A stretch of 64,000 nucleotides of DNA from Halostagnicola larsenii XH-48 (lineage in GTDB: Archaea > Halobacteriota > Halobacteria > Halobacteriales > Natrialbaceae). Made by a program: the position numbers and the translations under genes. Numbering within the stretch: the stretch's first letter is position 1; every line of letters starts with the position of its first letter. The notes beneath the pieces were generated by a model that was not told the origin of the DNA, made no database searches, and was given only the letters and a program-made list of their open reading frames with translations. Where the stretch lies: the NCBI RefSeq assembly GCF_000517625.1, contig NZ_CP007055.1:682001-746000 (forward strand), in the 5' to 3' direction. Positions 49,353 to 53,615 of the stretch are shown here, piece after piece.

Positions 49353-50465
49353 TCAGCTGAGGAGATTCTCGAGCGTCTCGCAGGTCGCCGCGGCCGCTCG
49401 CTCGATGTCGGAGAGGCGAACGTACTCGCGTTCGGCGTGAGCGACGCCGCCCTCGTCGTCCTCGAGGACGCCCGGGCCGAAGACCACCGTCGGCGCGTCG
49501 GCGGCGAAGAAGCCGGCCTCGGTCGCCGCCCCGAACGACCGCACGCCCCCGCCGCTTGCCTCCCGAAGCGTCCGAACGAGGACATCGTCGGAATCGGTCA
49601 CGAACGGCTTCGGAAACGGCGTGTCGGGTCGGATGAGCGAGACCGAGACCTGAAGATCCTCCCGAACCCGATCCGTGAGGTGCGCCTCGAGGGCCGCTCG
49701 AAACGAGTCGCTGGTCTCCGGGGGCACGCTCCGTCGGTCGAACGTGAGCCGGCACCGTTCCGGAACTCTGTTCGGCGCTTCGCCGGCCTCGAGCATGGTC
49801 GCCGTCAGTTTCGGCTCCCCGAGCGTGGCGTCCGCGTCCGGTTCAGCCTCGTCATCGTAGCTTCGTAGCGCTTCGAGGACTGTCTCGAGGCCGAATATCG
49901 CGTTTCGTTCCGCGGGTACCTTCGCCGCGTGGCCGCTCTCGCCCTCGAGGGTGATCGTCCCTTCGCACTGTCCGCGGGCGGCGATACACACGTCGAGACC
50001 CGTCGGTTCGCCGACGATGAAGCCGTCCGCAGACGGGGCCAGCGTCTCCTGTAACCCCGCCGCGCCGGTCATCAGCGTCTCCTCGTCGGTGGTGATCGCC
50101 AGCGTCAGTTTCCCGGCGGTCGGTTCGACGCCCACGAAGGCGGCGAGCAGGGCGGTGAGCGGTCCCTTCGCGTCACAGGCCCCGCGCCCGCGGACGATAT
50201 CGCCGTCGCGCTCGTATGGGACGTGCGGGGCGACGGTGTCGATGTGAGTGTTCAAGACGATGTGCGGGCCGTCGCCGTCCGTTCTGTCGGCTTCTCCCTG
50301 TTCGACAGCGCCTCGGCTGGCGAGGACGTTCCCGTAGTCGTCCACCGTGGGCTCGATCCCGGCGTCGCGAAGCGTTTCACAGAGCAGGTCCCGCATCTCC
50401 GAAACGTCCTTGTGGGAGGGCGTCCGGACCGCGTCGGCGTGGAACTGCGCGATATCGAACCCCAT
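49353..50465 (-). CDS. dapE: Succinyl-diaminopimelate desuccinylase-like M20 peptidase
   Basis: A 370-residue di-zinc M20 hydrolase. Metal ligands are visible in VLNTHIDTVAP, RGACDAKGPLTALL and AITTDEETLMTGA, with the dimerisation domain around ESGHAAKVPAERNAIFG and the last ligand near the C-terminus (GGVAHAEREYVRLSD). It lies 1-2 nt downstream of lysA, in the lysine cluster with dapD, which makes succinylated intermediates; this supports DapE over other M20 activities. It is the last gene of that transcript. Confidence 0.88.
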   Translation of the reverse strand: MGFDIAQFHADAVRTPSHKDVSEMRDLLCETLRDAGIEPTVDDYGNVLASRGAVEQGEADRTDGDGPHIVLNTHIDTVAPHVPYERDGDIVRGRGACDAKGPLTALLAAFVGVEPTAGKLTLAITTDEETLMTGAAGLQETLAPSADGFIVGEPTGLDVCIAARGQCEGTITLEGESGHAAKVPAERNAIFGLETVLEALRSYDDEAEPDADATLGEPKLTATMLEAGEAPNRVPERCRLTFDRRSVPPETSDSFRAALEAHLTDRVREDLQVSVSLIRPDTPFPKPFVTDSDDVLVRTLREASGGGVRSFGAATEAGFFAADAPTVVFGPGVLEDDEGGVAHAEREYVRLSDIERAAAATCETLENLLS

Positions 50466-50466
50466 C

Positions 50467-51714
50467 TTACTGCCCCGACTCGCGCTCGACGCGCGTTACG
50501 TCCTCGAGCGTTTCGCGCCGGCGAACGACCCGATCCTCGCCGTCTTCGAGCGCCACTTCCGCCGGTCGGGGCTGGGAGTGAAACTGGCTGGCGAGTTCGT
50601 AGCCGTACGACCCCGCGTTACCGATCGCGACGACGTCGCCGCGCTCGGGTCGGGCGACTGGACGATCGTGGGCGAAGACGTCCGCGCTGGTACAGACCGG
50701 CCCGCCGACGGTGACCTCGCGGGCCTCGCGATCGGGTGCGCTGACGTTCAGCATGGGATGGTAGGAGCCGAACATCGCGGGACGAATGAGGGTTGCGAGG
50801 CTGGCGTCGATGCCGACCACGGTCGTGTCGGGTGCTTCCTTGATCGTGTTCACTTCCGAGAGGATGAGTCCCGCGTCGGCGACGACGTAGCGGCCGGGCT
50901 CGAGTTTCAACTGCGCTTCGAGGTCGCCGATCGCCTCGCGGACCATATTCGAGGTCTTCTCGAGGTCTAAGGGCTCGTCGTCCTCGCGGTAGGGAACGCC
51001 GTAGCCGCCGCCGACGTCGACGAACTCGAGGGTGTCGTCGCCGACCCGGCGAGCCATCTCGCCGACGCGGGAAATGGCCCGACAGTGATCCTCGAGACCC
51101 GCTGTCAGCACGCCGCTGCCGGCGTGGGCGTGGAGGCCGACGAGGTCGAAGTCCTCGCGCACGCGCTCGGCGACTTCGGGGACGCGCTCGTAGGGGATCC
51201 CGAACTTCGCGTCCGCGCCGGTCGCGACCTTCTCGTGGTGGCCCGTTCCGATACCGGGGTTGATCCGGATGGCGATTCGCCCGTCGTAGCCGCGCTCTGC
51301 GAGGCGCTCGAGCGTATCGACCGCGCCGATGGTGATCGTCAGCCCCGGATGCTCCGCGGCGAGGTCGGTCGCGTAGTCGAGGTCGTGGTCCGGCGGGTTG
51401 ACGGCGGTGTACTGCAGTTCGTTCGGGTCCGCGCCCGCGTCGATCGACCGCCGGAGTTCGCCCCAGGCCGCACACTCGATGCTCCCGCCGGCCTCGAGGA
51501 CCGCCTCGAGGACCGCCTTCCCAGTGTGGGCTTTCGCCGCGTACATCACGTGTGCGTCCGGGAACGCGGCCGAAAATCGGGCGTAGTTCGCCTTCACGCG
51601 GTCGAGGTCCATCACGTAAAGCGGCGTATCGTACTCGTCGGCGAGCGACTCGAGTCGCTCGAGATCCCAGTCGTCGAGCCGGCGAACGGCCGGCGAGTCC
51701 GCGAGATCACTCAT
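50467..51714 (-). CDS. lysA: Diaminopimelate decarboxylase
   Basis: A 415-residue PLP enzyme of the alanine-racemase-like fold III group. The PLP lysine is in MYAAKAHTGKAVLEAV. The Gly-rich phosphate site is FVDVGGGYGVPY, EPGRYVVADAG follows, and the C-terminal active-site Cys is in GGPVCTSADVFAHD. It converts meso-DAP to lysine. The ATG at 51714 is supported by the family start. In this window it is separated from dapD by an oppositely oriented two-gene insertion, so it must have its own promoter in 51715-52022. Confidence 0.94.
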   Translation of the reverse strand: MSDLADSPAVRRLDDWDLERLESLADEYDTPLYVMDLDRVKANYARFSAAFPDAHVMYAAKAHTGKAVLEAVLEAGGSIECAAWGELRRSIDAGADPNELQYTAVNPPDHDLDYATDLAAEHPGLTITIGAVDTLERLAERGYDGRIAIRINPGIGTGHHEKVATGADAKFGIPYERVPEVAERVREDFDLVGLHAHAGSGVLTAGLEDHCRAISRVGEMARRVGDDTLEFVDVGGGYGVPYREDDEPLDLEKTSNMVREAIGDLEAQLKLEPGRYVVADAGLILSEVNTIKEAPDTTVVGIDASLATLIRPAMFGSYHPMLNVSAPDREAREVTVGGPVCTSADVFAHDRPVARPERGDVVAIGNAGSYGYELASQFHSQPRPAEVALEDGEDRVVRRRETLEDVTRVERESGQ

Positions 51715-52022
51715 TATCCACTGGAAGTGACCGGGAGGATTCAAGCGTTTGGGTTCGTCCGTTCGTCGGAAACTACGAGGCGACTCACCCGAATAGCTCG
51801 CGTCTCCCCACACGCCACTCGGTTCAGTATCATCACGCTGCTACCGGATGGTGAACTCGGTGGGCTCCCCGCCTGTTTCCGCTCGAGTTCCGCAGTCGAT
51901 TCTCGAAGCGGCGTTCCGCCGGCAAATTGAAAGGGTACATTAGATACGTAGAATACAAACCTGCTTCTCATACGGACAATATTTCGGATACACTCTTGGT
52001 TATCCGGTTCGTTGGTTCTCGT
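51715..52022. other. Divergent promoter region between lysA and the winged-helix/MazF pair
   Basis: About 300 bases holding two promoters. The left half is GC-rich and should contain the lysA promoter, though I cannot point to its TATA box. The right half is AT-rich (51925-51985) with CAATATTT around 51978-51985, followed by an inverted repeat (listed separately) and the winged-helix gene. I see no gene in it. Confidence 0.45.
51985..52006. promoter_or_regulatory. Inverted repeat before the winged-helix/MazF pair
   Basis: CGGATA (51985-51990) and TATCCG (52001-52006) flank a 10-nt spacer. The repeat lies just downstream of a possible TATA (CAATATTT) and ends 16 nt before the ATG at 52023, a position suited to autorepression by the encoded winged-helix protein. 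The arms are short, so chance occurrence is possible. Confidence 0.35.
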
Positions 52023-52373
52023 ATGTCGATCGATATCGAGGATTTCGAGGAACGCGCCCCCGAGGAACTCGAGGAGCCGAGTAACGCCGAACGAGTGCTC
52101 CAATTTCTCCACGAGCACAGCGACAAGGCGTGGAAGGCGTCGACGATCGCCAAACGGGCGGATGTCAACGAAAACTCGATCTCGGCTGTCCTCAATCGGC
52201 TGAAGGAGCAGGATCTCGTCCGACACAAGGGCTCGTACTGGGCGATTACGGACGACACGGAACGCCTTCGTCGTGCGCACCAGTTCCACCGGACGGCCCA
52301 GCGATTCGACGAACTATACGGCGAAGAGGATCGCGAGGAGTGGATCGAAGCGAGTGAGCGAGCGAACGAATGA
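52023..52373 (+). CDS. MarR-like winged-helix protein, possible antitoxin
   Basis: A 116-residue acidic protein. Residues about 28-80 form a winged helix: VLQFLHEHSDKAWKASTIAKRADVNENSISAVLNRLKEQDLVRHKGSYWAIT, a typical MarR/IclR-like fold. The C-terminal helix is charged (QRFDELYGEEDREEWIEASERANE). It overlaps the MazF-like gene by four bases (ATGA at 52370-52373), so the two are translated together. That pairing suggests the antitoxin/repressor of a toxin-antitoxin pair. The ATG at 52023 is chosen; the upstream extension is promoter sequence. Confidence 0.72.
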   Translation: MSIDIEDFEERAPEELEEPSNAERVLQFLHEHSDKAWKASTIAKRADVNENSISAVLNRLKEQDLVRHKGSYWAITDDTERLRRAHQFHRTAQRFDELYGEEDREEWIEASERANE

Positions 52374-52711
52374 CTCCCGGCCGAGGAACCATCGTTCTCG
52401 CGGACGATCCGTTCAAGGGCGACGATGCGAGCCGGCCCTGGCTGATAATCGGTACGGACGAGACACCCTTTCACGGCGAGCAATACATCGCACTCACGCT
52501 CTCGACGAAAACGTGGCACGACGAGCGCGTTCCGATCGATGGCGACGATATCATCGATGGTGGCCTGCCGAAAGACAGCTCGATTCTCCCGTGGGCGGTC
52601 GTATCAGTCGAAGCAACTCGAATCGATCGCGAGCTCGGCACACTCGACGAAACGCTCGTCGACACTGTCGTCAGACAGCTCGGTTCGTACGTCGGTCTCG
52701 AGCGACGCTGA
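52370..52711 (+). CDS. PemK/MazF-like toxin
   Basis: A 113-residue protein with the MazF/PemK beta-barrel pattern: RGTIVLADDPF at the start, RPWLIIGTDETPFHGEQYIALTLSTKTW, ILPWAVVSVEATRIDRELGTLDETLVDTVVRQLGSYVGL at the end. The family cuts mRNA or rRNA at short sequences. The usual N-terminal (R)G(D/E)I(V/Y)xxD and central Thr-Ser strand are recognisable, though divergent. It is coupled to the preceding winged-helix gene. Sitting between dapD and lysA in reverse orientation, it is probably an acquired cassette. Confidence 0.72.
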   Translation: MTPGRGTIVLADDPFKGDDASRPWLIIGTDETPFHGEQYIALTLSTKTWHDERVPIDGDDIIDGGLPKDSSILPWAVVSVEATRIDRELGTLDETLVDTVVRQLGSYVGLERR

Positions 52712-52778: not shown

Positions 52779-53615
52779 TTACTCCCGCAGCGCGTCCTCG
52801 CGCTCGGTCGCCTCGAGCGTCTCGGTCTCGAGACCCGTCGCGACGACGGCTGGCTTGTACGCGCCGCCCTCGAAGAGGTCGTGGTCGCTGACCGAGGACT
52901 CGACGAACCGCGTGAACGCGCGTCGCTCGGCGGGCAGTTCGCCGTACAGTACCTCCTCCTCGACGAGATCGTAGACGGGAATACGAGGCGTCAAGAGCGT
53001 GTTCTCGCCGACGACGCTGTCTTCGCCGACGACGAACCCGCTCGTGACGCGACAGCCGGCACCCAGCGAGACGCCGTCCTCGACGATGACCGGCGCGCTC
53101 TCGACGGGCTCGAGTACGCCGCCGATGAGGGTGTTCGCGCCGAGTTTGACGTTCTCGCCGATCTGGGCGCACGAGCCGACGGTGTCACAGGAGTCGACGA
53201 GCGCGCCGTCGCCGACGTGGGCTCCGATGTTGACGAAACTCGGGCTCATCATGATGCAGTCTTCGCCGAGATACGCGCCCCGACGGATGGTCGTCCCGTC
53301 GGGCGTGTTGCGGGTGCCGCGCTCGCCCAGGTCCTCGGTTTCGCGCAGCGGGAGGACGTCGTAGTGCTCGACGCCGCCGTACTCGAAGGCCGCGTTCTCG
53401 CGAAGGCCGAAGTTCAGCAGAATTCCCTGTTTGACCCACTCGTTCGCCTCCCACTCGCCGTTTCGCTTTTCGGCGGCGCGGATCTCCCCGTCTTCGAGCG
53501 CGGAGAGGAACGCCTCGAGGGTCGCGTGTTCGTCCTCGCCGGCCGACTGCGCGTCGACGTCGCCGCTTTGCTTTCGCTCCCACAGTTCGTCGATCTCGGT
53601 CTCGAGCGCACTCAT
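52779..53615 (-). CDS. dapD: Tetrahydrodipicolinate N-succinyltransferase
   Basis: A 278-residue left-handed beta-helix acyltransferase. Its hexapeptide ladder runs from RRGAYLGEDCIMMSPSFVNIGAHVGDGALVDSCDTVGSCAQIGENVKLGANTLI (DapD-specific MxPSxVNIGA and DSxxxVGSCAQIG blocks) to GAGCRVTSGFVVGEDSVVG. It transfers succinyl from succinyl-CoA in the DAP pathway. It is followed, in reverse orientation, by the MazF-like gene, and preceded by dapB at 78 nt. Confidence 0.93.
   Translation of the reverse strand: MSALETEIDELWERKQSGDVDAQSAGEDEHATLEAFLSALEDGEIRAAEKRNGEWEANEWVKQGILLNFGLRENAAFEYGGVEHYDVLPLRETEDLGERGTRNTPDGTTIRRGAYLGEDCIMMSPSFVNIGAHVGDGALVDSCDTVGSCAQIGENVKLGANTLIGGVLEPVESAPVIVEDGVSLGAGCRVTSGFVVGEDSVVGENTLLTPRIPVYDLVEEEVLYGELPAERRAFTRFVESSVSDHDLFEGGAYKPAVVATGLETETLEATEREDALRE

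Follow-up and report, generated by a model that had tools for sequence, protein, structure and literature searches.

A plus-strand gene pair downstream of dapD in Halostagnicola larsenii XH-48 is probably a mobile haloarchaeal type II toxin-antitoxin module at a reused site, a reading that includes proposed toxin, neutraliser and operator roles. Judged from its sequence, its toxin would be of MazF type and its partner a winged-helix protein of a haloarchaeal kind, and the junction into which it was inserted has hosted such modules repeatedly. Under the mechanism that we propose, the PemK protein would be a MazF-like endoribonuclease that stops growth by cutting RNA. The winged-helix protein would be made from the shared message immediately ahead of PemK and would bind and block PemK, probably via its own acidic C-terminal tail. 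The same protein would also repress the promoter of both genes, by binding direct repeats of 9 bp that stand in tandem at the core promoter or close to it. The pair would move among haloarchaeal genomes and, in the genus of the window (the whole stretch of 64,000 nucleotides that was analysed), would have settled downstream of dapD. Archaeal MazF-type toxins would thereby gain a distinct partner family and a testable, unusual proposed operator, in organisms in which few toxin-antitoxin systems have been tested.

Layout and proteins of the cassette

The DNA of the window is haloarchaeal, its relatives being haloarchaeal throughout as judged from record titles. The features discussed are listed below, the names of the dap and lys genes having been read from ORF translations.

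50467-51714, minus strand: lysA (415 aa), insertion neighbour, divergent from the winged-helix gene
51965-51991, plus strand: three 9-bp units TTCTCATAC / GGACAATAT / TTCGGATAC, the window's weak form of the direct-repeat lattice, proposed operator
51978-52711, plus strand: stretch common to cassettes elsewhere by blastn (similarity from 51978 in genome G004 and from 51980 in genome G025)
52023-52373, plus strand: winged-helix ORF (116 aa), proposed antitoxin and autorepressor
52370-52711, plus strand: PemK/MazF-family ORF (113 aa, PF02452 above cut-off), proposed endoribonuclease toxin
52779-52832, minus strand: final 54 bp of dapD; G025, G085, G107 and G141, unlike the window, have the equivalent stretch a second time past the insert
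52779-53615, minus strand: dapD, insertion neighbour, convergent with the PemK gene

The layout is as the earlier note described it, a two-gene plus-strand cassette with an ATGA overlap, around which dapA, dapB, dapD, lysA and dapE all lie on the minus strand. The end of the PemK gene is 67 bp from the end of dapD, and the winged-helix gene and lysA stand head to head, their starts 308 bp apart. The placing of the pair inside a lysine operon survives only in part: the strand of the surrounding genes agrees with it, but the cassette is convergent with dapD and divergent from lysA, and dapD and lysA are separated by more than 250 bp in 30 of the 32 genomes that carry the window's type of LysA.

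Assignment of the second gene to a PemK/MazF-like family was borne out. Its product scores 36.4 bits against PF02452 (E 6.5e-9), above the curated gathering cut-off of 23.1, and 19/25 family members match that model at E<=0.01. Foldseek with the AlphaFold model (pLDDT 87) returned ten best PDB matches that are all of MazF type (TM 0.75-0.79, E 3.7e-7 to 2.3e-6), while a PDB sequence search with the PemK profile gave no match at E<=0.01. R22 is invariant in 26/26 and in 25/25 aligned relatives, residue 45 is Ser or Thr in 89/89 sequences, and both lie within predicted strands of the model (strand 2 and strand 3). These positions are in line with the Arg and Thr on strands 2 and 3 given as active residues in the account of PemK homologues in PMC11130411, suggesting that the catalytic residues are kept. 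By score, predicted fold and putative catalytic residues, the second gene belongs to the PemK/MazF family.

The first gene appears to encode a MarR-like winged helix, as had been proposed in place of a MazE-type antitoxin, and the cassette has no match to PF04014 (AbrB/MazE-type antitoxin) at E<=1. Many HTH, MarR and TrmB models of Pfam match the protein weakly, every one below cut-off, and by that measure the window's protein falls outside the MarR family (MarR_2, 20.5 against 27 bits); 32 of 33 family members match MarR_2 at E<=0.01. The predicted structure is only fair (pLDDT 74), with a core at about residues 20-75 near 90 and tails at about 50-60. In the PDB, MarR-type regulators match its fold best, and Sso10a is among the first matches. 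Like HpaR, ZitR and Sso10a it has a predicted winged-helix core, and it differs from them in a TM by query length of about 0.4-0.5, in divergent tails and in its close linkage to PemK. The last 30 residues are acidic, with a mean net negative charge of 7.2 against 3.6 per 30 residues overall. PADLOC gave matches in the winged-helix region only. At one further locus (L006, G029:C1:141558-142741) two tandem winged-helix genes stand ahead of a single PemK gene.

With MazEF and PemIK the cassette shares the PemK/MazF family, the predicted fold, the catalytic Arg and Ser/Thr and an overlapping upstream gene for a putative DNA-binding partner. It is unlike them in its partner, a predicted winged helix, and in its proposed operator, a lattice of 9-bp direct repeats. 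Makarova et al. 2009 (PMC2701414) give AbrB, RHH, MazF/ccd and XF1863 among the partners of MazF, and the terms wHTH and MarR are absent from the main text of that paper; the cassette is akin to the types given there in that a known toxin superfamily occurs with varying antitoxins. Among the open-licence papers searched, we recognised no description of a haloarchaeal pair of PemK/MazF and winged helix.

Pairing and distribution among haloarchaea

A winged-helix gene lies directly upstream of PemK in all 31 of the best-matching loci from 61 genomes. With 80 loci from named genomes added, the count is 109 of 111, all haloarchaeal; the two exceptions start inside PemK at a contig end, and the 109 paired loci comprise 98 distinct pairs. 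Conversely, 27/29 winged-helix matches (E<=1e-19, eight genomes, compared by eye) adjoin a PemK match, the remaining two being in G024 and G029. Distances between winged-helix proteins and between PemK proteins correlate at r=0.941 over 89 of the 98 pairs (nine were dropped for stops or short length), the best of 500 permutations reaching 0.157. Co-divergence of two proteins also follows from co-inheritance without binding. The pairing both ways and the co-divergence show the layout characteristic of type II, in which a DNA-binding partner is tied to the toxin within an operon of two genes. Taken together, the pairing and the correlation suggest that winged helix and PemK form a near-obligate unit and that this unusual combination is a type II toxin-antitoxin design conserved among haloarchaea. 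The earlier description of a non-canonical toxin-antitoxin combination is therefore apt against textbook MazEF but not among haloarchaeal relatives of PemK, where this pairing is the rule, and public records already annotate both genes, as a PemK/MazF toxin and an HTH or MarR regulator.

The distribution of the family is patchy, with a PemK match in 47/61 genomes and 0 to 6 matches per genome. Relatives are present on 70 plasmid records, for which the genera listed are all haloarchaeal; none was found in the phage collection. Between the window and G035, PemK is 84% and DapD 82% identical, against 87% and 98% between the window and G004. Moreover, the G035 copy occupies another locus, after a dehydrogenase-like gene, and together these observations argue for transfer. 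The toxin decays while its partner stays: in G001 PemK is frameshifted near codon 41 beside an open partner gene, and the genome of the window holds a second, diverged winged-helix/PemK pair (L002, G000:C1:400394-401082) in which PemK has two in-frame TAG stops and the partner is open.

The junction downstream of dapD

We located dapD in 123 of 125 genomes of the family and compared 121 junctions, including that of the window; two at contig ends and the two genomes lacking dapD were left out. In 79 genomes lysA is of a type 50-58% identical to the window's, with dapD and lysA no more than 100 bp apart in 35 of them. The second type (32 genomes including the window) shares at least 84% identity with the window's; in the other 10 genomes no lysA was found in the vicinity. 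The PemK pair adjoins dapD in only four of the 121 junctions (the window's genome G000, G001, G004 and G025), and is absent at dapD from G002 and G003, which are of the window's genus. In G004 the pair beside dapD is followed by a luciferase-like gene, and similarity to the window begins abruptly at 51978. The close dapD-lysA spacing in those 35 genomes, together with the rarity of the cassette beside dapD, argues that the cassette is an insertion between the two genes. The insertion that the earlier note had postulated is thus supported by the junction comparison, most relatives being without the cassette, and the pair is not a housekeeping feature of this site in all relatives.

Two side observations concern the same neighbourhood. 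The gene dapF (PF01678 above cut-off) is present in 79/79 genomes with the other LysA type, in 0/32 with the window's type and in 0/10 where lysA is not nearby (window 49353-51714). The window's lineage keeps dapA, dapB, dapD and dapE, so another epimerase, or a LysA acting on LL-DAP, would be needed. An aldo/keto-reductase-like gene, named from sequence reading, lies downstream of dapD in 12 genomes, among them G029, G121, G122 and G124.

Two other readings of the cassette's function were weighed against these data. The winged helix may be a repressor only and PemK a tame RNase, non-toxic or regulatory, the two forming a stress-response regulator and not an addiction module. The resemblance of the partner to MarR-type regulators would suit this, and we found no toxicity data for the pair in the open-licence literature searched. 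We nevertheless consider it unlikely, given that the patchy, multi-copy and plasmid-borne spread of the pair, the decay of the toxin beside an open partner and the close pairing of the two genes in both directions all fit an addiction-type module. Far less probable still is that the cassette has turned regulator of the adjacent lysine genes, an idea that draws on its position between dapD and lysA and on the 308-bp divergent promoter region in common with lysA. G002 has both flanks and no cassette; in G004 and G025 the cassette is beside dapD and lysA is not adjacent; and the close copy in G035 stands elsewhere. The earlier proposal that loss of the cassette or its transcription could alter lysine synthesis likewise finds no support: G002 keeps its flanks without the cassette and G001 keeps the cassette with a frameshifted toxin. 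A type II toxin-antitoxin module remains our preferred reading.

The junction has also received other genes of toxin-antitoxin type, which lie downstream of dapD in 24/121 genomes and fall into four groups, checked against Pfam with one representative per group. These are the PemK pair (4 genomes), PIN and/or a small AbrB-like protein (15 genomes; PIN by PF01850, the AbrB-like protein without Pfam match), PIN with a PF04014 antitoxin (3 genomes) and PIN and/or a PF02697 VapB (3 genomes), G025 being counted in two groups. From these sequences, the dapD junction appears to be a variable site reused by unrelated toxin-antitoxin modules. Moreover, in G025, G085, G107 and G141, of four genera, the last 49-54 bp of dapD occur a second time, 0.75-1.3 kb downstream. 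The cargo before the copy is the PemK pair in G025, VapBC in G085, an AbrB-like protein and PIN in G107 and a 304-aa protein with an HESSH motif in G141. A match in G121 spans 19 bp and is too short to count. As a control, internal 60-bp windows of dapD gave 6 matches out of 847, none longer than 43 bp. By eye, the gene's own dapD end in G085 and G107 resembles that of congeners and the copy differs, so that the copy looks carried in. In G025, Halopiger goleimassiliensis, dapD is followed by the PemK pair, the dapD-end copy and VapBC in that order, which would suit an arrival of the PemK pair between dapD and an insert already in place.

Near the cassettes of the window, G001 and G004 a dapD-end copy is absent, local alignments scoring below the shuffle mean, and we rejected a relic of the dapD end beside the window's cassette on those scores. 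Searches of viruses, phages and plasmids for the dapD end found no carrier; five plasmid matches span 54-72% of the query, and their labels place them in genes or stretches other than dapD. A pattern search of the 125 family genomes, which misses the degenerate G085 copy, gave 83 matches in 80 genomes, all at or just downstream of dapD by eye. Widening the search to 293 genomes of the order added one match with 3 mismatches, in G104, and matches outside the family.

How the cassette reached dapD is a matter apart from what it does. We lean towards ordinary homologous or illegitimate recombination without a dedicated site-specific system, the dapD-end copies elsewhere being by-products; such a view bears only on how the cassette arrived and is compatible with the toxin-antitoxin explanation. 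It accords with the lack of a copy at the window's own insertion, with the failure to find the dapD end on a virus, phage or plasmid, with the varied length of the repeats that flank other pairs (34 to several hundred bp) and with the ORF lists of the dapD-junction inserts, on reading which we noticed no integrase. Harder to accommodate are the ends of the copies. In all four genera, whose cargo differs, the copy begins at the same CTCGAG, give or take about one base, and its other end coincides with the stop codon. Some integrative elements use the 3′ end of a gene as their attachment site. The four copy-bearing genomes, in which the last ~50 bp of dapD recur behind the insert, are like them, as is the tRNA-Gly-bounded 4.2-kb stretch of locus L165. 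The inserts of ~0.75-1.3 kb, in which we noticed no integrase, are unlike them, and the insertion of the window, without a copy, differs too. Only tentatively, and as a less likely reading, do we suggest the dapD 3′ end to be, in the window's haloarchaeal family, an attachment site for integron-like mini-cassettes. Each would consist of a cargo module (for instance PemK with its partner, a pair with a PIN toxin or a gene of metallopeptidase-like type) and a dapD-end copy of ~54 bp, the newest landing next to dapD and pushing older ones outward, as in G025. We found no report of dapD as an integration site in the literature searched. Sites that are empty, occupied or stacked occur naturally at this junction, a series in which it could be asked how small toxin-antitoxin modules move without an obvious mobility gene.

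Repeats upstream of and around the pairs

The inverted repeat that the earlier note saw at the promoter exists in the window (51985-52006, 6-nt arms, 10-nt loop). As a candidate operator it was rejected, since inverted repeats with arms of at least 5 nt occur in 34/94 family promoters against 36% of shuffles, a frequency no better than chance. The 70 bp upstream of the winged-helix gene do repeat themselves at a step of 9 (z 10.8 over 61 non-redundant promoters, with harmonics at 18 and 27). Four tandem 9-mers scored above the shuffles' 95th percentile in 32/61 promoters, against 0 to 7 promoters at the other steps from 6 to 14; the period-9 signal was present in 18/177 promoters of other genes at the same loci. 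The units of the family lattice resemble NNNNGATAC. They are found near an AT-rich stretch, often immediately ahead of it; this stretch, ~30 bp from the start codon, we take as the putative core promoter. The lattice score of the window is 0.37 against a shuffle mean near 0.35, and the window and its closest relatives range over 0.30-0.50. We therefore put forward the 9-bp direct repeats as a candidate operator whose signal is strong in the family and weak in the window.

Direct repeats (within 1 kb, E<=1e-6) flank 13/95 pairs, against 9/335 pseudo-cassette positions at the same loci; in a looser control with mismatched loci the counts were 17/98 pairs and 1/293. They are a mixed set: at L158, the same place as in G025, the repeat is the dapD end, at L004 it is the end of a dehydrogenase-like gene, and elsewhere there are insertion-sequence-like ends, among others. 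Some look like insertion-sequence ends or gene duplications, and we claim no single mechanism. At L165 (745-4991, Halobacteriales archaeon SW_6_65_15) the 4.2 kb in which the pair lies are delimited by tRNA-Gly at one end and, at the other, by a repeat of the 43 bp at the 3′ end of that tRNA gene. Lastly, the repeats flanking the PemK pairs of L188 (3428-3488) and L224 (3425-3475) have short inverted GTTGAGAC/GTCTCAA-like ends and perhaps derive from an insertion sequence or MITE.
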